From a virus: a stretch of DNA of 64,000 nucleotides. This document shows, piece after piece, positions 3,113 to 48,700 of the stretch. Position 1 is the stretch's first letter; the number at the start of each line of letters is the position of its first letter. Both the position numbers and the translations under genes were made by a program. Where the stretch lies: positions 1 to 64,000 of the IMG/VR virus record IMGVR_UViG_3300036768_001133. One strand, written 5' to 3'. The notes below the pieces were generated by a model that was given only the letters and a program-made list of their open reading frames with translations, was not told the DNA's origin and made no database searches.

Positions 3113-4054
3113 TTAAATAAAATGAGATTTTAATATACATTCTACCCTATCTACTTTTATGCTTCTTGCAAGCGGTGTAGGCTGTGTGCCATTTCTTGCA
3201 AGCAATGCACCAAAGCTCATATTCAAAGTCGCTAAGGCAGGATACGTAACAAAAAAATTAGGAAATGTATTTTCGTAAGTTGTTGTACCATCTGAACAAT
3301 AAATATACAAACTTGTATTTCTCTTTTCTATTCCTAATCTTACATATCTATTATCAGTGCTATCAAAAGGCACAGTAGTATCTAATACTAATAAATCCGA
3401 ACCTCCTATGCGAACTATAAATTTCATAAAGCTACTTTCCCCTACACGAGGGCATCTGAAAAAGATACCATTAGCAGTAATAGCTGCAAAAGTTTGCAAA
3501 AAACCCACCGCTTGAAACACATTGTCCGTTGCAACATTTATCAATCCATTTACAAAAGCTACTTCTGCATAGTATCCAAAATTAACACTATCGTATAATC
3601 TAATTCCACTACTATTATAAAAGCCTGCCCTTGACGAAGCAGTAGTAGTTATATTTAAGCGTGTTATGCCTAAACGACCCAAAGGTAATGTACTATTAAA
3701 ATTAGGTTGCTCTTCAAATAGATCTTGCACTACCGTCCCACCAAAAGCGGTACTTGTAAGAAATTGTAATGCAGAACCTACTGCATTACCAATAAAATTT
3801 TCTGTTACCCAATTTCTTAAATTAGCTTCTACATATCCTTCGGCAGCTATATTCCTCCAACTAATATTGTCCCTATACTGCAACTTGTTCGTCGTAGTAT
3901 TATAGACCATATCTCCTATTTGTGGGACAATAGAAAGTATTTGAGCATCTGTATTATTAGGCATACGTACTACATCTGCATTAGCAGTATCTACACGCTT
4001 AATAAAAGGTTCATCATCTACAAATACTTGTCTTGTTAAATAATGTCTTGACAT
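3113..4054 (-). CDS. Tail fibre or receptor-binding protein
   Basis: 313 residues. The N-terminal 90 residues (DDEPFIKRVDTANAD, then GDMVYNTTTNKLQYRD) resemble the attachment region of phage fibres. The TTTNKLQY element is typical of short trimeric fibre repeats. Residues 110-313 are beta-rich with alternating hydrophobic and Thr/Asn residues, compatible with a lectin-like jelly-roll head that binds a surface glycan. It overlaps the stop of the next upstream gene by 1 nt. The family is inferred from composition; no receptor can be named. Confidence 0.65.
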   Translation of the reverse strand: MSRHYLTRQVFVDDEPFIKRVDTANADVVRMPNNTDAQILSIVPQIGDMVYNTTTNKLQYRDNISWRNIAAEGYVEANLRNWVTENFIGNAVGSALQFLTSTAFGGTVVQDLFEEQPNFNSTLPLGRLGITRLNITTTASSRAGFYNSSGIRLYDSVNFGYYAEVAFVNGLINVATDNVFQAVGFLQTFAAITANGIFFRCPRVGESSFMKFIVRIGGSDLLVLDTTVPFDSTDNRYVRLGIEKRNTSLYIYCSDGTTTYENTFPNFFVTYPALATLNMSFGALLARNGTQPTPLARSIKVDRVECILKSHFI

Positions 4055-4494
4055 TAGTCTAACATTTTTAAGTTATCAGCCCTTGTAACTATATTAGCTA
4101 TTAAATGATTGATAGATATTGTACTATTTCTTAAAAATTCAAAAAAAGTGTATTCCCCTACAATACTTGCTCCTTCTCTTTGTTTAGGGATTTTTTTCTT
4201 ATATGTAATTGTTTCTCCATTCTCTTCCATTACTTCTTCCACCTCTTCCCATTCAACATAATCCCCATTATCGCTATACACTAAACTATTGTTAGTAGCT
4301 ATTAGCTGTCTTGCATAATCTAAATTTGGCAAATATACTTTATTGCCTTCATCATCAAGATAATAATGCAAAACTTCTAATACCAAACTTACAAATTTCT
4401 CTCTTGTATGAAAGGTGAAAAATAACTCTTTTGCTTCTCTCTTTATTTCTCTTGCATTGTATTGCAAATAAGAATTTGAAATATTAAATATCAT
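4054..4494 (-). CDS. Unknown virion-associated protein
   Basis: 146 residues, mixed alpha/beta, no signal peptide or membrane helix. It includes an acidic middle region (EWEEVEEVMEENGE) and an EYTFFEFLRNSTISINHLI segment near the C-terminus. I do not recognise it. The ATG overlaps the stop of the upstream membrane gene (ATGA), and its stop overlaps the fibre start, so it is part of the same tail/adhesion operon. It may be a fibre chaperone or connector. Confidence 0.6.
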   Translation of the reverse strand: MIFNISNSYLQYNAREIKREAKELFFTFHTREKFVSLVLEVLHYYLDDEGNKVYLPNLDYARQLIATNNSLVYSDNGDYVEWEEVEEVMEENGETITYKKKIPKQREGASIVGEYTFFEFLRNSTISINHLIANIVTRADNLKMLD

Positions 4495-4727
4495 AACTTA
4501 AATATTTTAATAGCTACCCATTTAAATATCATAAATACAAATATGCCTAATGAAACATATAATAGACATAAAGAAAATATATCTGTTATAGACCAATCAT
4601 AAATATCTAATATGACATTTATCTTTTCATCTTGCATATTAAATACCATTACACGTATAGTAATAGATACTATGATACCTAATACACTATACATTATCAT
4701 ACTGCTTGAATTAAATAGGTTTTTCAT
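4491..4727 (-). CDS. Small multi-helix membrane protein
   Basis: 78 residues with hydrophobic segments at about 11-29 and 48-76; the latter is long enough for one long or two short helices. There is a short acidic loop between them and a basic C-terminus. The size and topology fit a holin or antiholin. It is apart from the endolysin but in the same late operon, after the beta-helix protein. With the two membrane proteins near 0.3-0.8 kb there are three candidates for the holin, and sequence alone does not decide. Confidence 0.55.
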   Translation of the reverse strand: MKNLFNSSSMIMYSVLGIIVSITIRVMVFNMQDEKINVILDIYDWSITDIFSLCLLYVSLGIFVFMIFKWVAIKIFKL

Positions 4728-4730
4728 ATA

Positions 4731-5618
4731 TTATAGAAAATTACCTGTAATTAAATTACTATCTATAATAATACCATTGTAACTATCAGGGATACGACCA
4801 CTTGTAATATGTTGCAATAGCACACAATTTTGCATTTCAAGTCTTGTAATGTTAGGATTAGTGCTATCGCAAACACTTGGCAATGTATTGTGTATTATAC
4901 AATTTTTATAGCTTATTTCTGTTGTTCCTGCACTTCCACTTAAACTATCAAATCTATGATAATGTAACGTCGTATTTTCTCCTAAAATACAATTATCAAA
5001 AACAACTTTTCCGCTATTTATTCTGGCAATAAGTTTGCGTGTCCTATAGTTGTAAAAATGCATAAAATATCCTGTGCTTATTGCAGGCATATTAGTATAC
5101 GTAGTACATTCACTTATATCGGCTCTACTTCCATAAGCCGCTGAAATATTATATCCTTGTATTAAAGAACTCTTTGCAAATAAATTTAAAGTGCTTGAAG
5201 TATTTATTGTAAGTGTAAAACCAATAAGAACACTTTTAATAGATAAATATCCACTGCAATTTGTAGCATTAAGATTTAAAATATAGCCGTTATTACCTCC
5301 TCCTACAATATCTATATATGAACAACTAACTAAATTTATAGTAGATATTTTATTTATTACATTATCATTATTTATTTCATAATATATGAAAATATCATTT
5401 CTACTGCTTAACGTATAACTTCCATTATAGTCCCCATTAAAAATATGTATACAATCCCCATTTTGACAAATATCAAAAGCCCTTTGCAAAGATACAGGCT
5501 TATTTATCTTTCCTAATGCTTGTGCTCTTGTAAGCGTTGTACTACCATTTTCACTTACAAATAATGTTCGTCCTATACTTGGTATTTTCTCACCTGCACT
5601 AATTAAATCTATCCCCAT
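4731..5618 (-). CDS. Right-handed beta-helix protein, tail-spike-like
   Basis: 295 residues. From about residue 35 to the end the sequence shows the short-turn repeat pattern of a parallel beta-helix: many Ile/Val/Leu pairs separated by Asn, Ser and Gly, with NCxL-type rungs. The N-terminus (ISAGEKIPSIGRTLFVSENG then DICQNGDCIHIFNGDY) is like the opening of pectate-lyase-fold proteins. Phage tail spikes of this fold bind or cut surface polysaccharide. No catalytic triad can be picked out with confidence. It lies between the stalk protein and a membrane protein. Confidence 0.7.
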   Translation of the reverse strand: MGIDLISAGEKIPSIGRTLFVSENGSTTLTRAQALGKINKPVSLQRAFDICQNGDCIHIFNGDYNGSYTLSSRNDIFIYYEINNDNVINKISTINLVSCSYIDIVGGGNNGYILNLNATNCSGYLSIKSVLIGFTLTINTSSTLNLFAKSSLIQGYNISAAYGSRADISECTTYTNMPAISTGYFMHFYNYRTRKLIARINSGKVVFDNCILGENTTLHYHRFDSLSGSAGTTEISYKNCIIHNTLPSVCDSTNPNITRLEMQNCVLLQHITSGRIPDSYNGIIIDSNLITGNFL

Positions 5619-5620
5619 AA

Positions 5621-6427
5621 TTAGTATTGCATTTCTATTATTCTTAACTGACCCGAAGTTACTGAAAAGTTAATGCTTGGCAATGCTTGTCTATGCTGAC
5701 TATTTGCCGTAAATATTATTGGTGGAAAAGTCTCATCATAAAATAACCCATTGATAGTACCAGCTCCTCCACTATGAAATATAAACGCTACACTATAAAT
5801 TCCTGAACTTGTCGCTCCAAAAAAAGGTGCAGTGTAATCAAACTGCAAAATATTATGAAAACTTAATGGACTTGGCGAAGATATGAAATTGTATATCCCT
5901 GTTACATTTGTATCTATATTTGCTATATAAGATAATATAGATGCTATATTAGCATCTATATTTCCCATATATACATTGATACTTGCAACATCTGTTTGTA
6001 TTGTACTTAATATAGTGCTAATACCTGTTAAAGTGCTATCCATATTGACTAAAGTACTATCTATATTAGACAATGTACTATCCATATTAGTAGTAGTATT
6101 GTCTATACTTGTTAATAGTACCTCTAAATCTTGTATGTTTGTATCTATGTTAGTAAGAAGTGCATCTATATTAGCTATATTAGTATCTATATTAGATAGG
6201 TATGTATTTGTAGTAGTTATCAAACTTTCAACATCATCTACCGAATTGTATATGTTTGCAAGTGTACTATTAGTAACTACTAATTTATTATCTATATCTT
6301 GTAATTCTGCTAATATAGCATTTAACTCGGCAGAACAATTACAACCACTCACAGAGGTTAGTAGTTCTATTATTCGCCTTGTCCTTAACTCTATCTGCTT
6401 AATGTTATCAAATTGCTCTGACTTCAT
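5621..6427 (-). CDS. Coiled-coil stalk protein with beta-rich tip
   Basis: 268 residues. Residues about 45-175 consist of near-repeats of the type NIDTNIANID and SNIDSTLVNMD, with Ile/Leu/Met at regular spacing. This points to a long trimeric coiled-coil or beta-stalk. The last 80 residues are beta-rich and aromatic (FDYTAPFFGATSSG to IIEMQY) and look like a small head domain. The start overlaps the portal stop as ATGA. This fits a fibre placed near the portal or neck. The exact virion position is unknown. Confidence 0.65.
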   Translation of the reverse strand: MKSEQFDNIKQIELRTRRIIELLTSVSGCNCSAELNAILAELQDIDNKLVVTNSTLANIYNSVDDVESLITTTNTYLSNIDTNIANIDALLTNIDTNIQDLEVLLTSIDNTTTNMDSTLSNIDSTLVNMDSTLTGISTILSTIQTDVASINVYMGNIDANIASILSYIANIDTNVTGIYNFISSPSPLSFHNILQFDYTAPFFGATSSGIYSVAFIFHSGGAGTINGLFYDETFPPIIFTANSQHRQALPSINFSVTSGQLRIIEMQY

Positions 6428-8706
6428 AGCACATTTTTAATTTCTTTTCTTCTTATTATTTCTTTACTTTTTTGCTCTAATGCCACTGCATTCTCATATT
6501 CTTTCCTTTCCAAATTTAATAACTCTTGTTTTAACTTCAAAATTTCTTGCTTATATTTTTTATCTATTTCATTCTTTTCTTTCTCTAATTGTGCTTTCTG
6601 TAAGTTTTCATTCCTTGCTATCTCTAACTCTAACATCTTTATTTCTTTCATCTCTTTTAGTTTCATCTGTTCTATTTGCAGTTTTATCTCCATCTCTTTC
6701 ATCTTCATTTCCATTTCTTTGTCAGGTTGATTGGCTTGCTGTTGCTTCATAGCTTCCATTTGCTTTTCTGCTTCCTCTATCTTTGATAATATCTTACTTT
6801 CTAACTCATTTATACTATCTACCTTTAATAACCTAATTATATCACTTGCTTTCATCATTTGATTTTGCATCATACTTCCTAACATACCTTTTAATTCCTC
6901 AAAATACCTATTCTCTTTTACATTGTCCGTCATAAATATACCATAATCAGCAAGCAAGAAATCCTGACTTAACTTAAATATTTCCTGTTTCCCATCTCCT
7001 AATACATATGTTAAAGGCGTATTAACATTATGAATGTAATAATAATGTTTAGCATAATTCAAAAATCCTTCTAATACTTCCTTAAACACTTTGCTTTGAA
7101 AATAATATAATACTGCTGTGGCATAACTTCCTTGCCTTATTGCTCTATCTATCTGCCCTACTAAATCTTTTTGAAACATTTGTCCTTGCCTTTGCCTATT
7201 AAATCCACTTATCCTATCTACTTCATTTCTAATATCCTCTAACATTTGCGTTATTACAGATATACTTGCATCTAAACTATCATTATAGCTTTGAAATTGA
7301 TTAAACTGCCCTTGTCCTAATGAACTATCTATTATTAACAATCCTAACTTTCTGTAATACAATAAATCGTGTAATTCTAAACCTTTTGGTAATTGCGATA
7401 TATCATATATTACCCCTTTTACACCACTTAAAGCTATCATTCGTTCTCTATGATAGTTTAAGATATTATACAACTCTTGCAAATCCTTTAAATAATATAC
7501 TAAACTAAACTCCTCGCCTGTACTATCTATCTTAAACTCTAATCCCCCATAATGCAACTTGACATAATAAGGATTGCTAAATGAACGCATTTGTATATTA
7601 CTCTTCCCTATCTTATCCCATACATATATATCACTACCTATACAAACAAACTCATACAATTCTTGCATATACCTGCTCTCTTTACTCTTTATCGTTTTTC
7701 TATTAACATTATCTTTTTCTGTTAATAGCTTTACATAATTGACACCATATTTCCCTTCTATTTCAGCAAGTATTCGTTTAGATATGCTCTTCCATTGACC
7801 AATATACACCTCTATCTTATCTTGTGTATCTTGCAAATAATAATTTGGATTGTATCCTAAATCTTGATAATAACTCTTTACCATCTCTACAAAATGATAA
7901 TACTCGTTAGTAAGATAGTAATTTGATTGCCTATCTAACTTTTCTTTATCTTCATCAGTCAAATAATCTTGGTATCTATCTAATATCTGTTCCCTTGTCA
8001 AATATAAACGCTCACAAATCCAATTGCTATCTGCTATGTTTTCTATCCCTTCCTCGTTAGAATATACTAAATTGTAACTTGGTATTACCCTAATCCCTAT
8101 CTTACTTTTATAGTTTCCTTCCTCATATCTCCAAAAACACTTACCTACTTCTAATATACTCGCAAATAAAGCAGTCCTTATCCCCTTAAAATCTAAACTT
8201 AACTCAAAATATTTTAATAACTTCTCACATAATATTTCTACTTCCATTAAATAATCTCGCCCTATATTTTCTTTTAATTGCCTTAACTTACGCTCATCTA
8301 ATACCTCCATCTGCTTTGCACCCGCTAATGCCTTCTCAAACTCGTTATACAAAAACTTCATTAACTCTATATGTACCTTGTACTCCTTATACAATAACCC
8401 ATCTTCATCTATCCTACGTATATGATAATTGTATATCTGCTCCGTCTCCTCCCCTAATGCTACCTGCAAAACAGGTCTTATTAAAGGATAATTCTTTAAC
8501 TTTACAGGATACTCCTTCCCAAACTCCTTTGTAATATACTCAAACTTCTTTTCCGATAAATTACCCTGCAAAATATTATACACTAAATAGTCCTTTACCC
8601 TCCTGCTATAATAATGATTAAAACTATTCCTTATAGCATCTATATTCTCCTTTAACCAATCCCTATTCTTGTCCTTTTCTGATATGTTCTGTCTTGGTAA
8701 TAACAT
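6424..8706 (-). CDS. Portal protein
   Basis: 760 residues, a size usual for crAss-like portals. The N-terminal 550 residues have the helix-rich, Tyr-rich composition of a portal, with features such as RNSFNHYYSRRVKDYLVYN near residue 25. The last 150 residues are a very long charged coiled coil (Glu/Lys/Met/Gln) ending at the C-terminus. The portal forms the dodecameric channel in one capsid vertex and receives DNA from the terminase. A TATATTTG promoter box lies 24 nt upstream of the ATG, so it probably heads the operon running left through tail and lysis genes. The call rests on size, composition and its place after TerL. Confidence 0.8.
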   Translation of the reverse strand: MLLPRQNISEKDKNRDWLKENIDAIRNSFNHYYSRRVKDYLVYNILQGNLSEKKFEYITKEFGKEYPVKLKNYPLIRPVLQVALGEETEQIYNYHIRRIDEDGLLYKEYKVHIELMKFLYNEFEKALAGAKQMEVLDERKLRQLKENIGRDYLMEVEILCEKLLKYFELSLDFKGIRTALFASILEVGKCFWRYEEGNYKSKIGIRVIPSYNLVYSNEEGIENIADSNWICERLYLTREQILDRYQDYLTDEDKEKLDRQSNYYLTNEYYHFVEMVKSYYQDLGYNPNYYLQDTQDKIEVYIGQWKSISKRILAEIEGKYGVNYVKLLTEKDNVNRKTIKSKESRYMQELYEFVCIGSDIYVWDKIGKSNIQMRSFSNPYYVKLHYGGLEFKIDSTGEEFSLVYYLKDLQELYNILNYHRERMIALSGVKGVIYDISQLPKGLELHDLLYYRKLGLLIIDSSLGQGQFNQFQSYNDSLDASISVITQMLEDIRNEVDRISGFNRQRQGQMFQKDLVGQIDRAIRQGSYATAVLYYFQSKVFKEVLEGFLNYAKHYYYIHNVNTPLTYVLGDGKQEIFKLSQDFLLADYGIFMTDNVKENRYFEELKGMLGSMMQNQMMKASDIIRLLKVDSINELESKILSKIEEAEKQMEAMKQQQANQPDKEMEMKMKEMEIKLQIEQMKLKEMKEIKMLELEIARNENLQKAQLEKEKNEIDKKYKQEILKLKQELLNLERKEYENAVALEQKSKEIIRRKEIKNVL

Positions 8707-8729: not shown

Positions 8730-8737
8730 CAAATATA
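8730..8737 (-). promoter_or_regulatory. Late promoter -7 box TATATTTG for the portal operon
   Basis: On the minus strand the box reads TATATTTG, matching the Bacteroidota sigma consensus TAnnTTTG, followed by TGTATA. It is 24 nt from the portal ATG. The flank is close to that of the box at 16197. The AT-rich upstream region has no clear TTTG at -33. Confidence 0.65.
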
Positions 8738-8777
8738 AAATTTTTATTTTTCTATCCCTATTACATAATAAAAAAAA

Positions 8778-9227
8778 TTATGTATTAGACCTATTATCAA
8801 ATACATAATCTATTACCTTGCCTCTATCCTTGTAATATCCCTTATAGATAAGTTTAGGGTTTATAGCATATACTCCACGACCTATGCGTATTAAAACATT
8901 ACAAGATACCAAATTATATATGCTTTTTTCTACACACCTTATACTAATACCTAATGTATCCCCTATTATACCCTTATTACGTTTATTTAATACAATATGC
9001 ACCAAATCACTACCATAATAGACCTCTCCTAATAAATAGAATAATATCCTATAATCTGTAATATTCACTAAACAACTACACCAACTCATATCCTCCACAT
9101 ATAACTGCACAAACATTTCTACCTCTACACGCTTCACTATACTACTACGCTCCACTAATACACTACCTCCACCTACATTCGTAGTGTCTAAACGCTCATA
9201 TATTACCTTCCTTGTTCGCTTGGACAT
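8778..9227 (-). CDS. repL: RepL-like replication initiator A
   Basis: 149 residues. The central part resembles a winged helix: a helix-turn-helix region (IIGDTLGISIRCVEKSIYNL), then a wing (LIRIGRGVYAINPKLIYKG). The RGVYxxNPxxxxKG pattern is the hallmark of RepL-type plasmid initiators, also found in crAss-like phages. It would bind origin DNA and recruit the helicase. Three 22-bp direct repeats lie directly upstream (9255-9320), as expected for iterons or an autoregulatory operator. A second, diverged copy is at 16239 on the other strand. The gene shares the purine-biased coding strand of the terminase block. Confidence 0.75.
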   Translation of the reverse strand: MSKRTRKVIYERLDTTNVGGGSVLVERSSIVKRVEVEMFVQLYVEDMSWCSCLVNITDYRILFYLLGEVYYGSDLVHIVLNKRNKGIIGDTLGISIRCVEKSIYNLVSCNVLIRIGRGVYAINPKLIYKGYYKDRGKVIDYVFDNRSNT

Positions 9228-9254
9228 ATACTATTTTTATATGAAAAAAACTTC

Positions 9255-9320
9255 ATTAACGAACTATTGGTTCGGTATTAACGAACTATTGGTTCGGTAT
9301 TAACGAACTACTGGTTCGGT
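9255..9320. repeat. Iteron array A: three 22-bp direct repeats
   Basis: Units at 9255-9276, 9277-9298 and 9299-9320 start with ATTAACGAACTA and end with GGTTCGGT. The third differs by one base (ACT for ATT). Each contains the inverted repeat CGAAC/GTTCG around a 5-nt centre. The 22-bp period is two helical turns, so bound proteins would line up on one face. The array lies 28 bp upstream of RepL-A. The rest of 9228-9481 is AT-rich, with a CCTTATCTAAGG palindrome at 9430-9441. Confidence 0.9.
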
Positions 9321-9481
9321 ACTTTTTTCGTTAATTCCTTATCTATCAAGCAGATACGTATTCATTTGCTATTATCTCACTCTAGCAAAAACTATTACCT
9401 AAAACTACATAAAAAAAATAACAAAAATACCTTATCTAAGGCATATTTGTTACTCCTATGTATAAACCTAACTCCTAAAAA

Positions 9482-9910
9482 CTAATTCTCAACTTTGCTA
9501 ATATCTACCTTTTCAAAATTCATCACTAACCTAAACTTCCCCTTCATCAATATATCACTCACCCTATACAACCCTCTCCTAACCCTCTCTAAAAAACCAT
9601 AATCCTCTAATACCCTCAATATCATTAACAAATATACACGCTTCACACCTAATAACTCCATCAAATACCTCATACCCTCCCTGTCCCTCGTGCTAAATAA
9701 ACCATTCCCATATAATACACTTATCTCATATATAGCCTTCATACAACGTGTAAAATTTATTAAACGCTCATCTCCTAAACCCCTCCCCATCATATAACCC
9801 ATAAACTCTATCATATCATATACATTCCCACCCCCTACAACTACCTCTATATAACCATTCCCTATCTCCCTAAAATTAAAAAACTCCTTTAACTTTACAA
9901 ACCCTTTCAT
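9482..9910 (-). CDS. Winged-helix-like small protein
   Basis: 142 residues, unusually rich in Gly, Arg, Tyr and Met, like its neighbours. Residues about 88-120 (STRDREGMRYLMELLGV, then LLMILRVLEDYGFLERVRRGLYRV) look like a helix-turn-helix with wing, similar in plan to the RepL proteins nearby. That suggests a DNA-binding replication or regulatory protein, but there is no direct family match. It lies 11 nt after TerL and upstream of iteron array A, in the same orientation. Confidence 0.6.
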   Translation of the reverse strand: MKGFVKLKEFFNFREIGNGYIEVVVGGGNVYDMIEFMGYMMGRGLGDERLINFTRCMKAIYEISVLYGNGLFSTRDREGMRYLMELLGVKRVYLLMILRVLEDYGFLERVRRGLYRVSDILMKGKFRLVMNFEKVDISKVEN

Positions 9911-14804: not shown

Positions 14805-14933
14805 ATGGCAAGGATTCTATTCTTTATATTTCTTTTACTACTTTTAAATGCTGTTATGGTAATATTAGCATATTCGCAAATAAAATATGGATTGTATAAA
14901 ACAAAAAATATAAAATACATTAAAAAAATATAA
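14805..14933 (+). CDS. Small single-pass membrane protein
   Basis: 42 residues from the ATG at 14805. A strongly hydrophobic helix (residues 4-21) is followed by AYSQIKYGLYKTKNIKYIKK, a basic tail. The tail matches that of the product at 18347 (GYSQVK, then YLYKTKNVKYI), so the two are paralogues. Both sit shortly upstream of a 22-residue-repeat gene. A 19-bp duplication (ATATAAAATACATTAAAA) spans its stop codon and the start of the next gene. Function unknown; N-in, C-out or the reverse cannot be settled. Confidence 0.55.
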   Translation: MARILFFIFLLLLLNAVMVILAYSQIKYGLYKTKNIKYIKKI

Positions 14934-14946
14934 AATACATTAAAAT

Positions 14947-15525
14947 ATGGAGTTCATTATTGAATTAAGCAGGTTGAGGGAAACTCCCTGCGAAAGATAC
15001 CTTAAACATTTTGAAAATGGGAAAGTAGATGCTCTCAAGCTATTTAGAGAGCTTGGACAGAAATACGAATGGTTATACAACCATTCGGATTATGATATTA
15101 TAAGATTTGAAATAGAAAACGGGATATTTAATTGGGAAGAATATAGTTACTATGTTCCCCAATATTGTCCTGAATATTTTGATGGAAATAAATACAATTG
15201 GAGAGAAGATAGCTGGGCAATAGTTCAATATTGTCCAGAGCATTTTGATGGGGATAAATACAACTGGGAAAAAGATAGTTGGGCAATAGTTAAATTTTGT
15301 CCTGAATACTTTGATGGAAATAAATACAACTGGAAAGATCAAGGTTGGGCAATAGTTAAATATTGTCCTGAATACTTTGATGGAAATAAATACAATTGGG
15401 AGAAACATAGCTATTATGTAGCTATGTATTGTCCTAAATTGTTGGACAAGAATAAATACAATTGGAGAGAAGATAGTTGGGCAGTATCTGAATATTGTCC
15501 CGAACTATTGAAATATAAACCTTAA
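14947..15525 (+). CDS. 22-residue-repeat protein, copy 1 (six units)
   Basis: 192 residues. A conserved 55-residue N-terminal domain (starting MEFIIELSRLRETPCERYL, with DALKLFRELG) leads into six repeats of 22 residues. The consensus is KYNW-x4-WA-x3-YCPE-x2-D-x2, with Trp, Cys-Pro and an acidic residue at fixed places. The last unit ends in PELLKYKP. The regular 22-residue period suggests a helical solenoid, superficially like DUF4116-type repeats. Function unknown; one of four paralogues (also 18960, 19612, 20232). The 66-nt DNA repeat itself folds into a TGGGCAATA/TATTGTCCA-type hairpin. A terminator follows. Confidence 0.8.
   Translation: MEFIIELSRLRETPCERYLKHFENGKVDALKLFRELGQKYEWLYNHSDYDIIRFEIENGIFNWEEYSYYVPQYCPEYFDGNKYNWREDSWAIVQYCPEHFDGDKYNWEKDSWAIVKFCPEYFDGNKYNWKDQGWAIVKYCPEYFDGNKYNWEKHSYYVAMYCPKLLDKNKYNWREDSWAVSEYCPELLKYKP
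15066..15087 (+). other. Perfect 9-bp stem-loop inside repeat gene
   Basis: Arms CGAATGGTT and AACCATTCG with loop ATAC. The stem is degraded in the paralogues at 19.1 and 19.7 kb. Confidence 0.8.
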
Positions 15526-15534
15526 CATTTCATA

Positions 15535-15568
15535 ACACACAAAGTTACAAACTTTGTGTGTTTTTATT
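15535..15568 (+). terminator. Rho-independent terminator after repeat gene 1
   Basis: Perfect 11-bp stem ACACACAAAGT/ACTTTGTGTGT with loop TACAA, then a T-rich tract. It is 10 nt after the stop. Confidence 0.85.
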
Positions 15569-15610
15569 TGTGTTCGTTATTAGTTCAAAAATGTAACAAC
15601 AAAAATTTAA

Positions 15611-15739
15611 AAAATAGGCAAGTGTGATAAAGCCAATTACATAGACTACAAGTTCCTAGATAAAAAGCCCACTATTAGAGATTTTCAAGAAAAAAATCTA
15701 CTTACAAATTTTGAACTTTTTCAAGATATTGCCGCTTAA
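15611..15739 (+). pseudogene. Possible remnant of a coding sequence without a start
   Basis: An open frame of about 42 codons between in-frame stops reads KCDKANYIDYKFLDKKPTIR and then DFQEKNLLTNFELFQDIAA before TAA. The composition looks protein-like, but there is no ATG, GTG or TTG in frame. It may be the tail of a gene cut by rearrangement. It could also be chance in a 713-bp gap (15526-16238) that otherwise holds terminators, inverted repeats and iterons. Confidence 0.3.
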
Positions 15740-15748
15740 CTCACGTTA
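15737..15748. promoter_or_regulatory. Repeated motif TAACTCACGTTA, copy 1
   Basis: A 12-bp element (TAAC/GTTA inverted around TCAC) followed by TATAATAT. The same 12 bp recurs at 22545, again in a gene-free gap and followed by an AATAT-containing stretch. It is a candidate operator or phage-specific promoter element. Confidence 0.45.
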
Positions 15749-15757
15749 TATAATATT

Positions 15758-15795
15758 TATATGTGTGTAATAATTCACACATATAGATTTTTTTT
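15758..15795 (+). terminator. Rho-independent terminator
   Basis: Stem TATATGTGTG/CACACATATA (10 bp) with an 8-nt loop, then GA and eight T. It lies about 10 nt after the repeated 12-bp motif, so a very short transcript could end here. Confidence 0.75.
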
Positions 15796-15875
15796 ATGCT
15801 TACGCATACGCTAAATATATAAGAAAAGAAAATATAGGATAATACATTGTTTATCAATGTTTTACGATAAAAATT

Positions 15876-15938
15876 ATTACTCTATGGGGCTAATGAAATT
15901 ACTCTGTGGGAGTAATTTCAATAGTCTGTCAGAGTAGT
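15876..15938. repeat. Long three-tier imperfect hairpin built of 22-23-bp palindromic units
   Basis: Nested stems ATTACTCT/AGAGTAGT, GGCTA/TAGTC and GAAATTACTC/GAGTAATTTC are separated by symmetric 4x4 and 2x2 internal loops. That gives 23 pairs in 63 nt. Read linearly, it is three related units starting near 15876, 15899 and 15921, the middle one a perfect palindrome. It is either a structured RNA or part of an origin. Confidence 0.75.
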
Positions 15939-16002
15939 AAAAAATTTAAAAGAAGTCCTTTTTTTTTAGTTTATGTGTGCAATATACTAATATATAGTAA
16001 AA

Positions 16003-16041
16003 TAAGAGTTAAATAATTGATTATCATATATTTAACTCTTA
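16003..16041. repeat. 12-bp inverted repeat left of iteron array B
   Basis: Arms TAAGAGTTAAAT and ATTTAACTCTTA flank a 15-nt AT-rich centre. It ends 4 bp before the iterons. Confidence 0.85.
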
Positions 16042-16045
16042 TGAA

Positions 16046-16111
16046 AATGTCGTTTTCGGTTGATAATAATGTCGTTTTCGGTTAATAATAATGTCGTTTT
16101 CGGTTAATAAA
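16046..16111. repeat. Iteron array B: three 22-bp direct repeats
   Basis: Units at 16046-16067, 16068-16089 and 16090-16111 begin AATGTCGTTTTCGG and end TTAATAAT or a close variant. One base differs in unit 1, and the end of unit 3 varies. Unit number and period equal those of array A, but the sequence differs. The array lies 127 bp upstream of RepL-B and is bracketed by two 12-bp inverted repeats. This is a likely replication origin or initiator-binding region. Confidence 0.9.
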
Positions 16112-16136
16112 ATACACTATTTTGAGTGTATTTTAT
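16107..16136. repeat. 12-bp inverted repeat right of iteron array B
   Basis: Arms ATAAAATACACT and AGTGTATTTTAT with a 6-nt centre. It overlaps the last bases of the third iteron. Confidence 0.85.
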
Positions 16137-16196
16137 ACATTATTTGATATGTATAAAGAAAATGTATTTTAAGCTTTTTTTTTAATTTTTAATACT

Positions 16197-16204
16197 TATA
16201 TTTG
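16197..16204 (+). promoter_or_regulatory. Host-type promoter -7 box TATATTTG for RepL-B
   Basis: TATATTTG followed by TGTGTATT matches TAnnTTTG and the flank of the portal box on the other strand. It is 35 nt upstream of the RepL-B ATG and downstream of the iterons. Confidence 0.65.
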
Positions 16205-16238
16205 TGTGTATTAAATACTAATTATTAGATGTAAAAAT

Positions 16239-16721
16239 ATGAAAAATGCAAAGACAAAAATTTATGAAGAGATTAAAACTGTAATAAACGAAGATGGGGA
16301 AATAATTACAGCTGAATTTACAACAGTAAAAAAAGTAACTAAGGAAACGTTCTTACAGGTTTATTTAGATGATTTTTACTCCTTAATGAGAATTAGAGAG
16401 GGAAACGAATACAAATTAGTTCTGTGGATAGGTAAAAATATGAATTTCGATAATGAAATAATACTGGTTAAGGAAATAAAAAATAGAATCGCCAATGAAA
16501 TTGAGTGTAATGTAAGAACCATAGATAACTCAATACGGTCGTTGGTATCTAAGGGCATTTTAATCAAGTCTGGGAGGGCTATTTTTACTTTAAACCCACA
16601 TTTATTTTTCAAGGGCAGCTTAGACCAGCGGAATAAACTCAAAAAGCTTATAAAGAAAGTAGAATACGATTTCTTAGAAGAAGATGAAACAAAAGAAATA
16701 CAAAGTGATAGCAAAGGTTGA
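16239..16721 (+). CDS. repL: RepL-like replication initiator B
   Basis: 160 residues. The N-terminal 35 residues lead into TFLQVYLDDFYSLMRI, then a helix-turn-helix (EIKNRIANEIECNVRTIDNSIRSL) and a wing with GILIKSGRAIFTLNPHLFFKG. The layout matches RepL-A at 8778 and the RepL family pattern G-R-x3-LNP-x4-KG. The C-terminus is charged. It probably binds iteron array B, opens the origin and brings in the DnaB-type helicase encoded two genes later. Its last codons overlap the next gene by 38 nt. Confidence 0.8.
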   Translation: MKNAKTKIYEEIKTVINEDGEIITAEFTTVKKVTKETFLQVYLDDFYSLMRIREGNEYKLVLWIGKNMNFDNEIILVKEIKNRIANEIECNVRTIDNSIRSLVSKGILIKSGRAIFTLNPHLFFKGSLDQRNKLKKLIKKVEYDFLEEDETKEIQSDSKG

Positions 16722-16920
16722 TAATAACAAGTTTGTAAAGTATAACGTAAATAATTTGATTCTTTTCACGAAATTTCTTGACAGGAGCTTTCAGGTTTGT
16801 TGGCGTTGGTTCAATGTGATAGCAATATTTTGTTTGTTTTATATGGCTACTATTTTTACATTTGTGTTAGTAGTTAGTTTTATATTATTACCTATAAAGG
16901 TTATACTATGGTTAGTATGA
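16684..16920 (+). CDS. Small membrane protein between RepL-B and the helicase
   Basis: 78 residues. A basic polar N-terminus of about 40 residues precedes a hydrophobic region (residues about 45-77) long enough for one long or two short membrane helices. The start overlaps the end of RepL-B by 38 nt, and the stop overlaps the helicase start as ATGA, so it is translationally coupled to both. Function unknown; a membrane tether for replication is an inference. Confidence 0.6.
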   Translation: MKQKKYKVIAKVDNNKFVKYNVNNLILFTKFLDRSFQVCWRWFNVIAIFCLFYMATIFTFVLVVSFILLPIKVILWLV

Positions 16921-18209
16921 TAGATGTTGAATTAGACAGCATATATTATTGTCTAATAAACAATAGCAATATACGTATATTTGATAGGGAATACTATACA
17001 AAGGGTGATACTTTGTATATGTATGACAAGTTAGTTGAAATATATAATAAAGAAAAATATGTCAGTTTGAATATATTTAGGAATGAGATAAAGGGGGATA
17101 GTATATTGCATAAGTATTTATCTGTATATAATGATAAATATGTATGTAGTTATACTATTGAAGAATGTGAAAAGATAATGAGGAGAGACTACAATAGAAG
17201 GGTATTTATAGATATGATAAATGATAAGTCCTTATTAAGGGCTAGTGATGATAGGATATTGGAGGTGATGATGGAGGTCATAAGCAAGTTTAGGGGGAAT
17301 AAGATGGAAAATATAGTTAGTAATTTTGATAAGATGGTTGAATACATAATTAATGTAGATAATAACAGGTATAAAATAGGTATAGAGGGTATAGATAGTT
17401 CTATATCTATAGAGCCTGATAGGTTTATAGTGATAGGTGGGGCGAGTGGTAGTGGGAAGACAGCCTTCAGTGTATTTTTAATAAACAAGCTATGTCAGTT
17501 GTATAGTGATAGCTTGTATGTTTTATTTATAAGCCTTGAGATGAGTGAGATAAGAGTGATGATGAGGTTAATAAGTTTATTATCGGGAAAGAGCATTGGG
17601 GAGTTAAAGGCTGTAGATAAAAGTTTTTTTGAAGGGTATAGGGATATAATTAGTGGTTATTCATTAGATATAATGTATAGCACTATGGATATTCCAAAGT
17701 TATCTGCAGTATTGCAGATGCATATAAATGAAGCAAATAGAAAAGGTAAGATACCTGTGGTTTTTATAGACCATTTTGGAGAAGTAAGTGGTTTAGATGA
17801 ACATACAGCGAAATCTAACACAGATAAAGTAACCGCTTTGTGTAAGGATGTAGCAAGACAAGGCGGCATATGTTTCGGTCTTACGCAATTGCGTAAGGAT
17901 TTGTTAGATAAGAGGAATGAAGGCAGTTATTACAAGCCTTCAAATGGATACATTATGAATAGTCAGAGTGTAGAAGCGAGGGCAGATGTAATAATGCACT
18001 TGTGGAGACCTGAATATCATAATGTATTAGAGATAATAGAAGAGGAAAAAGATATGATAAGAGTAATAGATACAAGAGGTAGTATATGTATAGTAAATGA
18101 TAAGAACAGGGATTTTAAGAAGGGTGATATATGGCTGGATTGTGATATTAAAACGAATAGTTTTAAGGATATTCATAGTAGTAAAATACAAATTATTAAT
18201 AAATTTTAA
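16917..18209 (+). CDS. DnaB-type replicative helicase
   Basis: 430 residues from the ATG at 16917 (ATGA overlap); another ATG three codons earlier is possible. An N-terminal helical domain (about 1-130) is followed by a RecA-like ATPase. Walker A GASGSGKT ends near residue 182 (Lys181), and the Walker B strand VVFIDH has Asp285. A sensor-like QLRKD follows and Arg-rich residues lie near the C-terminus. The family forms hexamers that unwind DNA 5' to 3' at forks. The gene follows RepL-B, so the two likely act together at the origin. Its DNA contains perfect palindromes at 17485, 17702 and 17880. Confidence 0.88.
   Translation: MIDVELDSIYYCLINNSNIRIFDREYYTKGDTLYMYDKLVEIYNKEKYVSLNIFRNEIKGDSILHKYLSVYNDKYVCSYTIEECEKIMRRDYNRRVFIDMINDKSLLRASDDRILEVMMEVISKFRGNKMENIVSNFDKMVEYIINVDNNRYKIGIEGIDSSISIEPDRFIVIGGASGSGKTAFSVFLINKLCQLYSDSLYVLFISLEMSEIRVMMRLISLLSGKSIGELKAVDKSFFEGYRDIISGYSLDIMYSTMDIPKLSAVLQMHINEANRKGKIPVVFIDHFGEVSGLDEHTAKSNTDKVTALCKDVARQGGICFGLTQLRKDLLDKRNEGSYYKPSNGYIMNSQSVEARADVIMHLWRPEYHNVLEIIEEEKDMIRVIDTRGSICIVNDKNRDFKKGDIWLDCDIKTNSFKDIHSSKIQIINKF
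17485..17517 (+). other. Perfect 9-bp stem-loop in helicase gene
   Basis: Arms ACAAGCTAT and ATAGCTTGT around a 15-nt loop. Confidence 0.75.
17880..17897 (+). other. Perfect 18-bp palindrome in helicase gene
   Basis: Arms CTTACGCAA and TTGCGTAAG meet without a spacer, over the codons for the sensor region. Confidence 0.85.
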
Positions 18210-18219
18210 TTTAATTTAA

Positions 18220-18396
18220 ATGGAAAAGAAAACCATCATTATTGAATGTATAGGCGAGCAATATTCTGCCTATATAGAAGATATACCTGGGTTAATATCT
18301 TTTGGTACTAACCTAAAAGAGGTATTGGATAACTTAGTGGAGGGATATGAATTACATATGGAACTATTGTCAGAACTGGACGGAGATAACTATTAA
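18220..18396 (+). CDS. Orphan HicB-like antitoxin-fold protein
   Basis: 58 residues from the ATG at 18220. The sequence starts with a strand (KTIIIECIGEQYSAYIEDIPG), then SFGTNLKEVLDNLVEGYELHMELL. This is the HicB-like pattern: YxAxxxDxPG, then a G-T-x2-EV motif and a helix. Full HicB has an added DNA-binding domain, absent here, and no HicA toxin gene is adjacent. It may act as an antidote to a host HicA or as a small regulator. It follows the helicase by 10 nt and overlaps the next gene by 50 nt. Confidence 0.7.
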   Translation: MEKKTIIIECIGEQYSAYIEDIPGLISFGTNLKEVLDNLVEGYELHMELLSELDGDNY

Positions 18397-18556
18397 TGCT
18401 ATTATAGTAATAGTAGGATATTCGCAAGTAAAAGAAGCAAAGATAGAAGATAAGTATAAATTTGAAGACAAGATACTAATACCCGTATTAGAAGGGAAAT
18501 ATGGAAAAGAATACTTGTATAAAACAAAAAATGTAAAATACATTAATGTATATTAG
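18347..18556 (+). CDS. Small membrane-associated protein, paralogue of the 14805 product
   Basis: 69 residues. A weakly hydrophobic segment (INAIIVIVGYSQVK, about 16-29) is followed by an acidic/basic insert and the tail YLYKTKNVKYI shared with the 42-residue protein at 14805. The N-terminus overlaps the HicB-like gene in another frame, which suggests that the original start was replaced by recombination. Its stop overlaps the next gene start by 11 nt. Function unknown. Confidence 0.5.
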   Translation: MNYIWNYCQNWTEITINAIIVIVGYSQVKEAKIEDKYKFEDKILIPVLEGKYGKEYLYKTKNVKYINVY

Positions 18557-18935
18557 AGCGATAGGTAAAGATATAATTATATCTGTAGATAATGATTTAT
18601 TAAAGCCTTGTAATAGGATAACTTGGTTTTATCCTATTACAGACAAATGTAAAAATAGTATAGTATCGTATTTCAAAAAGCAAGGATATAGTATAGATAT
18701 CCTCAAAGAAGAATACATACTATATGAAGATGACTTGTATATTTGGTTATCTGATACAGATAATATACAGGGTATAGATTATGATTGTTTATATTGTGGT
18801 GGTGATAGTTTTGATATGGTAATAAACGGAAAAGAGCATAATATATGCTTAAAAGAAGATAAGCTATATGAAATAGTAATTGGTAATCACTATAATAAAA
18901 GCAGAATAATAAAGGCAGAACCGAAAAGCCTGTAA
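18546..18935 (+). CDS. Unknown acidic early protein
   Basis: 129 residues, rich in Asp, Tyr and Ile, with CLYCGGDSFDMVINGKEHNI in the second half. There are two nearby Cys (CLYC) but no second pair, so no zinc finger can be claimed. No family recognised. It contains a perfect 13-bp hairpin at 18609-18641 and a 7-bp one at 18683-18703. It holds the position of the 14351 gene ahead of a repeat gene. Confidence 0.6.
   Translation: MYIRAIGKDIIISVDNDLLKPCNRITWFYPITDKCKNSIVSYFKKQGYSIDILKEEYILYEDDLYIWLSDTDNIQGIDYDCLYCGGDSFDMVINGKEHNICLKEDKLYEIVIGNHYNKSRIIKAEPKSL
18609..18641 (+). other. Perfect 13-bp stem-loop inside a gene
   Basis: Arms TGTAATAGGATAA and TTATCCTATTACA close on a 7-nt loop. Confidence 0.88.
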
Positions 18936-18959
18936 TTAGGGGTAAAAAAAACAAGTAAA

Positions 18960-19538
18960 ATGGAATTTATTGTTGAATTAGAAAAGCTAAGGGAAACACC
19001 TTGCGAAAGATACCTTGAACATTTTATAGATGGTAAAGTCGACGCTCTCAAACTATTTAGAGAGCTCGATGAACAATATGAATGGTTGTATGCATATTCG
19101 GACTATGATATAGTCCGTTATGAAATAGAAAATGGAATATTTGATTGGGAAAAACACAGCCGTTATGTTGCTGCGTATTGTCCTGAATATTTTGATGGAA
19201 ATAAATACAATTGGGAAAAATATAGCTGTTACGTTGCTCAATATTGTCCTCAATACTTGGACAAAGAGAAATACAATTGGGAAGTTGATAGTTGGGCAAT
19301 AGTTAAATATTGTCCGCAATATTTTGATAAAGAAAAATACAATTGGAAAACTGATAGCTGGGCAATAGCTGAATATTGCCCACAATATTTCGATAAAGAA
19401 AAATACAATTGGGAGAAACATAGCTATTATGTTGCTATGTATAGTCCTGAACTATTGGACAAAGATAAATATAATTGGAAAGAAGATAGCTGGGCAGTAG
19501 CTAAATACTGTCCCGAACTATTGAAATATAAACCTTAA
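18960..19538 (+). CDS. 22-residue-repeat protein, copy 2 (six units)
   Basis: 192 residues with the same N-terminal domain as copy 1 (MEFIVELEKLRETPCERYL, DALKLFREL) and six 22-residue units. The later units read YCPQYFDKEKYNW-type. The leader just upstream (GCCTGTAATTAGGGGTAAAA) is nearly the same as that before copy 3, so the duplicated segment includes upstream DNA. Cys, Pro, Trp and Asp positions are conserved in nearly every unit (one YSP variant). Function unknown. Confidence 0.8.
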   Translation: MEFIVELEKLRETPCERYLEHFIDGKVDALKLFRELDEQYEWLYAYSDYDIVRYEIENGIFDWEKHSRYVAAYCPEYFDGNKYNWEKYSCYVAQYCPQYLDKEKYNWEVDSWAIVKYCPQYFDKEKYNWKTDSWAIAEYCPQYFDKEKYNWEKHSYYVAMYSPELLDKDKYNWKEDSWAVAKYCPELLKYKP

Positions 19539-19611
19539 TTATTTTTACTACAAAAGGCAAAACCCGAAAAGCCTGTAATAAAGTAGGGGTAAAAAAAACA
19601 AGTAAAAAAAA

Positions 19612-20226
19612 ATGGAATTTATTATCGAATTAAGCAGGTTAAAAAAAGAACCCTGCGAAAGATATTTAAAGTATTTTATAGACGGCAAAATCGATGCTCT
19701 CAAGCTATTTAGAGAGCTTGGCGAACAATATGAATGGTTGTACAGACATTCGGATTACGATATTATAGGATTTGAAATAGAAAATGGAATATTTGATTGG
19801 GGAAAATATAGTTATTATATTGCTGAACTTTGTCCGCAATATTTGGACAAAGATAAGTATAACTGGAAGGAACATAGCTGGGCTGTTGCTGAATTTTGTC
19901 CCAAGCATTTGGACAAAGATAGATACAATTGGGAAGAAGATGGTTGGGTAGTTGCGAAATATTGTCCCGAACTATTGGACAAGGAGAAATATAACTGGGA
20001 AAAAGATAGCTATTATATTGCGAAATATTGTCCCGAGCATTTGGACAAGGACAAATACAATTGGGAGAAATGCAGCTGGGCTGTTGTTGAATTTTGTCCC
20101 GAGCATTTTGATAAGGATAAATATAATTGGAAAGAAGATAGTTGGGCAATAGCTCAATTTTGTCCCGAACTATTGAAATATAAAAAAGGCAAAACCCGAA
20201 AAACCTGTAAAAAAGTACAAAACTAA
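19612..20226 (+). CDS. 22-residue-repeat protein, copy 3 (six units, extra tail)
   Basis: 204 residues. The N-terminal domain has SRLKKEPCERYLKYF and DALKLFRELGEQYEWLYRHSD, closest to copy 4. Six repeat units follow, ending PELLKY. A basic tail (KKGKTRKTCKKVQN) is then encoded by what serves as the intergenic leader in the other copies, because the stop codon was lost. This read-through shows recent change. It lies 5 nt before copy 4. Confidence 0.8.
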   Translation: MEFIIELSRLKKEPCERYLKYFIDGKIDALKLFRELGEQYEWLYRHSDYDIIGFEIENGIFDWGKYSYYIAELCPQYLDKDKYNWKEHSWAVAEFCPKHLDKDRYNWEEDGWVVAKYCPELLDKEKYNWEKDSYYIAKYCPEHLDKDKYNWEKCSWAVVEFCPEHFDKDKYNWKEDSWAIAQFCPELLKYKKGKTRKTCKKVQN

Positions 20227-20231
20227 AAAGT

Positions 20232-21011
20232 ATGAAATTTATTGTCGAATTAAGCAGGTTAAAAAAAGAACCCTGCGAAAAATACCTTAAACATTTTGTA
20301 AATGGTAAAGCTGACGCTCTCAAATTATTTAGAGAGCTTGGCGAACAATACGAATGGTTGTACAGACATTCGGACTATGATATTATAGGATTTGAAATAG
20401 AAAATGGAATATTTGATTGGGAAAAATATAGCTATTATATTGCCCAATATTGTCCCGAGCATTTGGACAAAGAGAAGTATAACTGGGACGAAGATGGTCT
20501 TTATGTTGCCGAATATTGTCCCGAGAATTTGGACAAAGAAAAATACAATTGGAAAGACCATAGTTGGGCAATAGCCCAATATTGTCCCGAACATTTTGAT
20601 AAGGACAGATATAATTGGGAAGAATATAGTTATTATATTGCTAAATATTGTCCGCAATATTTAGACAAAGAGAAGTATAACTGGGAAAAACAAAGTTGGG
20701 CAATAGCCCAATATTGTCCCAAGCATTTTGATGAGGATAAATATAATTGGAAAGAACATGGTTATTATATAGCCTTATATTGTCCTCAATATTTTGATAA
20801 AGATAGATACAATTGGGAAAAACATAGCTATTATGTTGCGAAATATTGTCCCGAGCATTTGGACAAGGATAGATACAATTGGGAGCAATGTAGTCGCTAT
20901 GTTGCCCAATATTGTCCGCAATATTTGGACAAGGACAAATATAATTGGGAAGAACATATTTGGGCAGTAGCTCAATTTTGTCCCGAACTATTGAAATATA
21001 AACCTTATTAA
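20232..21011 (+). CDS. 22-residue-repeat protein, copy 4 (nine units)
   Basis: 259 residues; the longest copy, with nine 22-residue units after the shared N-terminal domain. Units alternate between a SWAIAQYCPE type and a SYYIAKYCPQ type, a hint that pairs of units were duplicated. Each unit keeps Trp, Cys-Pro and Asp-Lys at fixed spacing. Unit number differs from its paralogues, as expected when 66-bp repeats recombine. It may be a modular binding scaffold; no target is known. Confidence 0.8.
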   Translation: MKFIVELSRLKKEPCEKYLKHFVNGKADALKLFRELGEQYEWLYRHSDYDIIGFEIENGIFDWEKYSYYIAQYCPEHLDKEKYNWDEDGLYVAEYCPENLDKEKYNWKDHSWAIAQYCPEHFDKDRYNWEEYSYYIAKYCPQYLDKEKYNWEKQSWAIAQYCPKHFDEDKYNWKEHGYYIALYCPQYFDKDRYNWEKHSYYVAKYCPEHLDKDRYNWEQCSRYVAQYCPQYLDKDKYNWEEHIWAVAQFCPELLKYKPY

Positions 21012-45772: not shown

Positions 45773-48700
45773 TTAAAAAGGTAAATCTTCTTTTTCTATT
45801 GTTCCTGTTTCTGTTTCTGTTTCTGTTTCTTTTCCTGTTTCTATTGCTGTTTCTGTCCTCGTTCCTGTTTTTGTTGCTGTTACATTTTCTTTTTCTCCTG
45901 CTTTTGATGTTTTACATACATTGTCCAAGTTACTTTCTTTAATAGAAATGTTAATCTTTATATCAGTTGGCTTGTCTGTTTCAAAAGTATCAAATATAGA
46001 TACCCCCTCTATAATTTGGTTTTCAGTATTATTCATTGCTTTTACATTGTCAAAACTAAATCCTGCTATTACTTCATATATTAACTCATTACTTTTTACA
46101 TCTTCTATTTTTCTCTTATTGTTTTCTGAAATATACAAGTTAATATATTTCAAATGATTAGCATAAATATTAAATATAGTATTCTCTGAAACACTTTTTA
46201 AGACACTCAATAAATCATTTCCTAATATATGATTTTCTTTATTTATTATTGAAATAGCTCCATATACATTTTCATAACTAACAGTATCATCTTGCTTCAT
46301 TTTCTTTAGTATATTAACATACCTTCTTGCAAGACTTCTTGCCGTTTTTGACATAATTTTTTTTGCTCTTTTATCTACTTCTTCTTCTTCTTCTTCTGTT
46401 TCTTTCAGTAAATCTACTAAAAATTTATTAAAACCTGAATCTTTATTCTTTTCTAAAATATCTTTAATGAAAATATTTTCAAGCGTATTTTCCATACTAA
46501 GCCTATTTTTCAAACCATCCGAAGTTATTATTTTAATAACTTCATTTCCCGACAAACCTATTCTTCCTGCACCAAAAAACTTAGCTAATAATTGTCTTTC
46601 ATATTCGTTTAATTGTTTGTCAATAATTGGTATTTGTTTTATATACTTAAAAGCAGAAATAACCTTACCTTTGTTTTCATCACTTAATTGGTCTATGTTT
46701 TTGGCTTTCATTTGCACTAATACTGCTTTTCGGTTTTTTACTGCTTCTTTTAAGATATTACTTGCCTTTTCATATTTTTTATTTTTTATCTCTCGATTGT
46801 AATTTAATTTTGTTTTAATATCTATAAATTGAGGTACATATAAATATCCATTTACAGAAAGATAAGGATAACTGGCTGAACTTTGTACATAATCCTTTAA
46901 TGTTGTAATATTTCCTGTACTTGCTACATACCTGCCAAAAAATCTATCATCAGGCGAAACTTCATATTGTATATCTATAATCTTTCCATTGTCTATAAAC
47001 TTGTCAAATATACTATTATTTTCATTCCTATTTTTACTTAACCTTACTAAACCTATTAGCTTGCCTTCATATTTAATATTTATAGCATAAAACTCATTTC
47101 TTCCCGTACCAAATACTTTAAAAGTATTTCCTTCTTTAATAGGCTCTAATGTAATAGATACATTATTTCCTTCTTCTAAACTACTTATGAACGAATTGTA
47201 AGCATCATTATCAAGTTTAAAGGTTAATCCTGTACTTGCTTCATTTACATATTCAAAAACTCCTTCATAAGTAGAACCATAGAAATATCTATCGAAAGCA
47301 TCAGATATAGCTGTTAATAGATTGTTTTCATCATCATCAGCTTTCTTTTCTTCTCCTTCTTCTAATTGTTTTAAGTCTTCATATACTCTATAATGTATAT
47401 CAAAATCCCCTAATGCTATATCTCCTACATATATTTGCCTTAACTTACCATCTATCGTTACATAGTTAATATTGTCTTTATCTCTTGTAATAGTACCTGC
47501 TTTAACTTTTGAAAATATAAAGTTATATATCTCTTTTATTAGATTTTTTTCAATATCTCTTATTTCATTCTCATTTAACTCTTCTTCTGTTTTTCCTCCT
47601 TGTGTTGTAGATTTAGCAGTTTTTGCTTTTTTATCTACAGCAGTTTTTGCTTTTTTATTTCTTGCTTTTTTATTTCTTGCTTTTTTATCTACAGCAGTAA
47701 CAACTTTTATTTCTCCATTTCTTTCTTTTTTCTCTATACTTATATTACTTGATTGCAATTTACCAAATTCAAGCGATAACTCCTCTTGCATTTTGTTTTT
47801 TTCTAAACTTGGAAATATTACTATACCTTCCTTATCAACTTCTTTGACATTTTTCTTTAAGTTATCTATAATACTATCTACTGATTTTACATAGTCTTCT
47901 TGTCCCGTAAAATCACTATTAACAACAATAATACTATGTTTGCCTCTTGATAAAGCAACATACAAAGCAGATTTTATTTGTTCAGCTGTAAAATCAACAT
48001 CTACATCTTGTATCTTTTTTGTATAAACTTTATTTACTCCTGATTGCAAATTATTGATAACGTTAATAGCTTGCATAAGGGCTTTTATATCTATAATTAC
48101 GCTTTGTCTTTCTTGCCCTTGATTAGGATATACTGCATTTAGTATTTCATCAAAACTATAATAAGTAAAGGCTTGTTGGTCATTACCACTTGTTTTATGA
48201 TGATATACTATCTGTCCATATTGCTCTTTACTTGCATTAAATTCTTGATTGTTTAAAAATACAATTCCTTGATGAACAATATCGCTATTTACGTTAAGAT
48301 GACTTTTTAAGTTTAGTCCATCAAAGAAATTGTTAATATTTATATTGTCTAATTTTAAGACAGCTAATACACGTTCTAAAAAGTTAGCTATCACTTCATT
48401 TTCAAAACGCAAAGGTACATTGACAGAAAAATTGCCTTCTATTAGATCACTTTTTATATTAAATATACTAGTGCTATTTGCAATTTCTTGCTCTCTATAA
48501 AATTGATGTCTGTCTCCTACTAATACAAAATTAGGTTTATTTAACCAATTTTCAGAGGCTAATGTATATTCATCAACAATATAGATTGTATTTTCTTTGT
48601 TTGTATCTAATCCTTGATAATTTGGCTCATTGTATTGCAAGCTGTTAGCACCTTTATAGGGCGATATAGTTTCTGCACCTGCTAATACTTTGTTATTATT

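Follow-up and report, generated by a model that had tools for sequence, protein, structure and literature searches.

The window, a stretch of 64,000 nucleotides from the start of virus record IMGVR_UViG_3300036768_001133, carries four related plus-strand genes (R1 to R4) whose products consist largely of a 22-residue Trp/Cys-Pro repeat. We conclude that their repeat family is undescribed but belongs to a known general kind, the alpha-solenoid, and that it was amplified in tandem in a lineage-specific manner. Our leading, still tentative, interpretation is that R1 to R4 are cytoplasmic early alpha-solenoids that most likely act as protein-binding scaffolds, with a host factor as the most likely partner.

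Four Genes Share an N-Terminal Region, a Variable Number of Units, and a Cap

R1 (14947..15525, +) and R2 (18960..19538, +) each encode 192 amino acids, with an N-terminal region (14947-15129 and 18960-19142, respectively) followed by six units (15130-15522 and 19143-19535) and a stop codon. R3 (19612..20226, +; 204 amino acids) has its N-terminal region at 19612-19794 and six units at 19795-20184, after which it continues into a 13-residue C-terminal extension (20185-20223). R4 (20232..21011, +; 259 amino acids) comprises an N-terminal region (20232-20414) and nine units (20415-21008), again followed by a stop codon. Each copy starts with ATG, and the reading frame is intact in all four. The proteins share the order of a 61-residue N-terminal region, the 22-residue units and a common C-terminal cap, CPELLKYK.

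Open reading frames and the splitting of each protein at [DN]W, by which the unit boundaries were set, agree with the original prediction of a four-gene family with six, six, six, and nine units of 22 residues. The predicted shared N-terminal domain is also present in all copies, although it measures 61 rather than 55 residues; residues about 43-61 of this part resemble a degenerate unit. The unit number varies as had been proposed (six vs. nine), and the genes themselves have been amplified in tandem. The remainder of the record (72,795 bases, 72.8 kb, in total) contained no fifth copy.

The repeat is well defined. Self-identity at a lag of 22 residues reached 0.51-0.61 in R1 to R4, compared to a maximum of 0.17 in shuffled proteins (2000 shuffles per protein; 22 was the best of lags 5 to 39). 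Searching the window for a unit pattern in which 14 bases were fixed gave 20 occurrences, compared to none in shuffles, and the 66-nt arrays were also detected by TRF. The unit consensus is [ND]W-[EK]-x-x-[SG]-[W/x]-[A/Y]-[VI]-A-x-[YF]-CP-[EQ]-x-[LF]-D-x-x-[KR]-Y. All 27 units have W2 and P14, and 26 have C13; the most variable positions include 4, 5, 7, 8, 11, 16, 19, and 20.

Gene Duplication Preceded Local Duplication of Units

Copy 3 had been proposed to have lost its stop. Judged against R2, the ancestral stop is indeed gone, but R3 still terminates, with a stop codon at 20224-20226. About 20 nt (CCTTAATTATTTTTACTACA), the stretch holding the stop codon of R2, are missing from R3, and as a result of this deletion, translation of R3 continues for 13 residues through what was formerly spacer. 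Sequence comparison identified this spacer (+ strand) upstream of R3 (19552..19611), in a similar form upstream of R2 (about 18911-18959) and as a degenerate copy before R4 (20185-20231), where it is partly translated as the R3 extension. The leader of R2 is found again ahead of R3 and, in degenerate form, ahead of R4, so the duplication took in the leader as well as the gene.

In a nearest-unit comparison, units 5 and 6 of R1 paired with units 5 and 6 of R2, whereas units 3 and 4 of R1 and units 3 and 4 of R2 each paired inside their own gene. Therefore, gene duplication came first and local unit duplication followed later.

Two further observations concern the sequence ahead of the copies. 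The stretch 14860-14945, ahead of R1, resembles a remnant of the small open reading frame at 18347-18556, a hint that the ancestral duplication was larger. Open reading frames of 139 and 129 amino acids upstream of R1 and R2 were considered as paralogues and rejected, as they are not paralogous.

The Copies Are under Purifying Selection

The N-terminal regions of R1 to R4 are 72-89% identical, with pS values of 0.37-0.66 and pN values of 0.06-0.14 (dN/dS between copies about 0.09-0.27). As pN lies far below pS, all four copies are constrained proteins, and we conclude that they are under purifying selection. Testing the unit position by position, we found pN exceeding pS at positions 4 and 17 only, with few synonymous sites, and clear positive (diversifying) selection was not seen in this comparison. 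It is highly improbable that the arrays are functionless products of slippage or recombination that drift neutrally. The variable unit number and the lost stop codon of copy 3 would fit such an origin; the low pN, the intact frames, and the conservation of the motif across different phages argue against it.

The Repeat Proteins Are Predicted to Form a Regular Alpha-Solenoid

The AlphaFold2 model of R4 is a regular alpha-solenoid of nine units (mean pLDDT 93.3, pTM 0.80), in which each unit contributes one 11-residue helix and a short (3-residue) helical turn. The model thus has tandem short helical units in one elongated fold and bears out, at the level of structure prediction, the modular solenoid that had been proposed. 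We count the fold as predicted because the underlying alignment was shallow (5 sequences). A Foldseek search with the full R4 model gave nothing significant in the PDB or a viral library, and structural alignment of 11 chains by VIA-align, PUF and HEAT-type proteins included, gave Z scores of at most 4.1, which is the noise level for repeats. The N-terminal domain alone was modeled with moderate confidence (pLDDT 75), and its model had no significant match by Foldseek or VIA-align.

One alternative drawn from these comparisons is a modular, PUF-like nucleic-acid-binding solenoid, in which variants at positions 7-8 would be part of a recognition code. Most units carry either W-A or x-Y at this pair, and two Pumilio/Puf domains were among the aligned chains (Z 3.7 and 3.2). 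However, for repeats both scores are below the noise level that VIA-align itself sets, and no significant match came from Foldseek. Moreover, the window copies are acidic (pI 4.8-5.7, net charge -5 to -12), and such isoelectric points fit protein binding better than nucleic-acid binding. We consider the PUF-like alternative improbable.

R1 to R4 Belong to the Replication Block of a Divergent crAss-Like Phage

The portal and large terminase of the record match PHROGs families, the large terminase is about 28% identical to terminases of crAss-like phages, and an 815-amino-acid protein matches the crAssvirus muzzle protein. By these sequence comparisons, the record is assigned to a divergent crAss-like phage. 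R1 to R4 share a plus-strand block with genes for RepL (PF05732), a DnaB-like helicase, Erf, and SSB, and lie between the RepL/DnaB and Erf/SSB genes, while the structural genes are on the opposite, minus strand. RepL has already been reported from crAssphage (PMC7551546). The original prediction placed the family in an early region. The location in a replication block stands, and early expression, which we infer from the gene content of the block, is probable. Neither the neighboring genes nor PADLOC indicated a defense system at the repeat-gene region.

The RepL gene itself (16239-16721, +; PF05732 match, 8e-14) is preceded by three 22-bp direct repeats (AATGTCGTTTTCGGTTAATAAT) at 16046-16110, just upstream, which possibly represent an iteron-like origin and thus a phage-plasmid trait. 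Elsewhere in the window, at 9255-9321, a different 22-bp unit (ATTAACGAACTATTGGTTCGGT, 97% matches) is repeated three times in an apparently intergenic position. The minus strand encodes a 2882-amino-acid protein with an SF1 helicase-like domain (45773-54421; Viral_helicase1, AAA_30) and, adjoining it, a 4093-amino-acid protein for which no Pfam family was matched. We also noted a strain of 99.3% identity (IMGVR_UViG_3300038505_000010), whose contig begins at window position 12895, ~2 kb before the first repeat gene; neither the N-terminal domain nor the unit was matched anywhere on this contig.

Relatives Occur in Several Different Phages

Through protein and pattern scans, we recovered true relatives on four more IMG/VR contigs, as well as in a single metagenome-assembled genome (MAG) of a bacterium. 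Contig L009 (IMGVR 3300020201_000026) encodes a 111-amino-acid protein, comprising the N-terminal domain plus about 2.3 units, and adjoining a helicase gene. The relative encoded on L032 (3300037010_002778) is full-length and shares this N-terminal domain; its gene lies close to a DNA polymerase gene and to a dUTPase-like open reading frame. L035 (3300014913_000305) holds units and cap at the start of the contig, near a terminase with a MazG-like open reading frame upstream; this terminase belongs to a different PHROGs family than that of the window. L046 (3300014913_000063) carries two tandem copies near RusA, of which the inner has a short N-terminus and the outer is cut by the contig end. 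The dUTPase and MazG labels reflect our reading of the sequence. Both the DNA polymerase (3473-7276) and the dUTPase-like (8732-9632) open reading frames of L032 contain intein-like stretches.

Matches to the N-terminal domain pattern were confined to the window copies, L009, and L032, and the C-terminal cap CP-x-L-L-K-[YF] is retained in L035 and L046. The MAG contig (L051, JALWFW010000160.1, Polyangiaceae), with no phage genes evident nearby, is the sole true relative in the genome collection, of which a first scan had found none. The unit profile had no matches in 395 sampled Bacteroidota genomes or in 281 sampled Myxococcota genomes other than that of L051, and no true relatives were found among INPHARED phages or PLSDB plasmids. 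Match L074 and the pattern matches in genome contigs other than L051 were rejected as chance. As judged from these scans, the family is rare in the searched collections and occurs mainly in phage contigs.

Throughout, the phage copies are located near replication, recombination, or nucleotide-metabolism genes. A site beside replication genes is equally compatible with an accessory role in replication, in which the solenoids would be scaffolds for replication or recombination that bind the phage's own RepL, DnaB, Erf, SSB, or nucleotide-metabolism enzymes. The window copies flank RepL/DnaB and come before Erf/SSB, and relatives adjoin DNA polymerase, helicase, and RusA. However, the families of the neighboring genes differ from phage to phage, leaving no fixed partner, and a replisome component would not obviously need four divergent copies. 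Furthermore, there was no match in annotated phage records, crAss-like phages included, and we regard an accessory role as doubtful.

A host-binding scaffold on the virion, as an adsorption component, is another possibility. Solenoid repeats of variable number can in principle be adhesins, and the genes on L035 and L046 lie within several kilobases of structural genes. In the window, however, the repeat genes belong to the plus-strand replication block, apart from the minus-strand structural genes, and their regular Cys content would suit a reducing cytoplasm. A virion component is thus quite improbable.

Proposed Function

We favor cytoplasmic protein binding. Each protein would open with a small N-terminal domain, continue as a stack of helical 22-residue units, and be closed by the C-terminal cap; its core would be built from the conserved residues (Trp, Ser, Cys-Pro, Leu/Phe, and Tyr). 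The variable positions 4, 5, 7/8, 11, 16, 19, and 20 may then line a partner-binding surface, and the bound partner would most likely be a host factor involved in takeover or defense. Tandem gene duplication together with local unit duplication would yield paralogues that differ in length and surface.

An arms-race role had been suggested from the expansion of the repeat. Tandem amplification alone does not demonstrate an arms race, and a putative anti-defense role of the repeat proteins is plausible. A more far-reaching proposal, that this undescribed class of 22-residue Trp/Cys-Pro solenoids is a phage-borne modular inhibitor platform, with each of various phages amplifying both gene and units into paralogues that bind and disable different host defense or housekeeping proteins, strikes us as rather unlikely.

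These genes add an undescribed repeat family with a confidently predicted fold to the early regions of crAss-like phages, which are for the most part unannotated. The family is common to several different phages and amplified in tandem in at least two. Should its units have binding specificity, they would provide a compact natural scaffold, and their targets would point to host proteins that such phages must neutralize.

Comparison with Known Repeat Families

R1 to R4 had no credible match in Pfam, NCBIfam, PHROGs, PADLOC, or the PDB, and the same was true of the relatives in the first four libraries. Literature searches returned nothing on a 22-residue Trp/Cys-Pro repeat. The expectation that no described family has this repeat is supported at the level of these searches. 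A phrog_658 match of copy 3 (5e-6) spans 19 residues, has an E-value of 0.015 or worse on a whole-record basis, and was rejected as a chance motif. PADLOC, a library of defense proteins, gave short, weak matches only; TniQ matches (PADLOC E 0.001; Pfam E 0.13) were weak and partial, and we took them as chance.

DUF4116 (PF13475) had been named as the nearest idea; our comparisons do not support this link, and we rejected membership. Its Pfam model had no match at E<=1 in the four copies and five relatives, and hhalign gave a probability of 0.1% for the unit against DUF4116, compared to 99.9% for the positive control; with DUF4116 represented by five two-unit stretches from one protein, this profile comparison is a weak test. 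Both are tandem helical repeats, and a Fadolivirus DUF4116 protein appeared in the fold search as a weak, non-significant match. However, the DUF4116 unit has about 25 residues in the one example read, and DUF4116 lacks the W/CP signature.

No PUF, HEAT, or ankyrin family was matched in Pfam, and sequence comparison with the PDB gave nothing credible. PUF and HEAT-type solenoids share the general alpha-solenoid architecture with our model (VIA-align Z 2.4-4.1, at noise level), but their units are longer, with two or three helices each, and have no sequence relationship to the 22-residue unit. Ankyphages and phage WO encode ankyrin-repeat proteins, whose helical repeats are thought to bind partner proteins. 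These are likewise phage genes made of helical repeats, though of another repeat family with another expected partner, and no sequence similarity was found.

The leucine-rich repeat variant LRV (PF01816; PDB 1LRV) has a short unit of alternating alpha and 3-10 helices. Its Pfam model had no match at E<=1, and it lacks the W or C-P ladder. Compared by description, LRV may nevertheless resemble our AlphaFold2 model in having a helix and a short turn per unit, with a local AVAxxP resemblance, and would be the closest known system in general plan.
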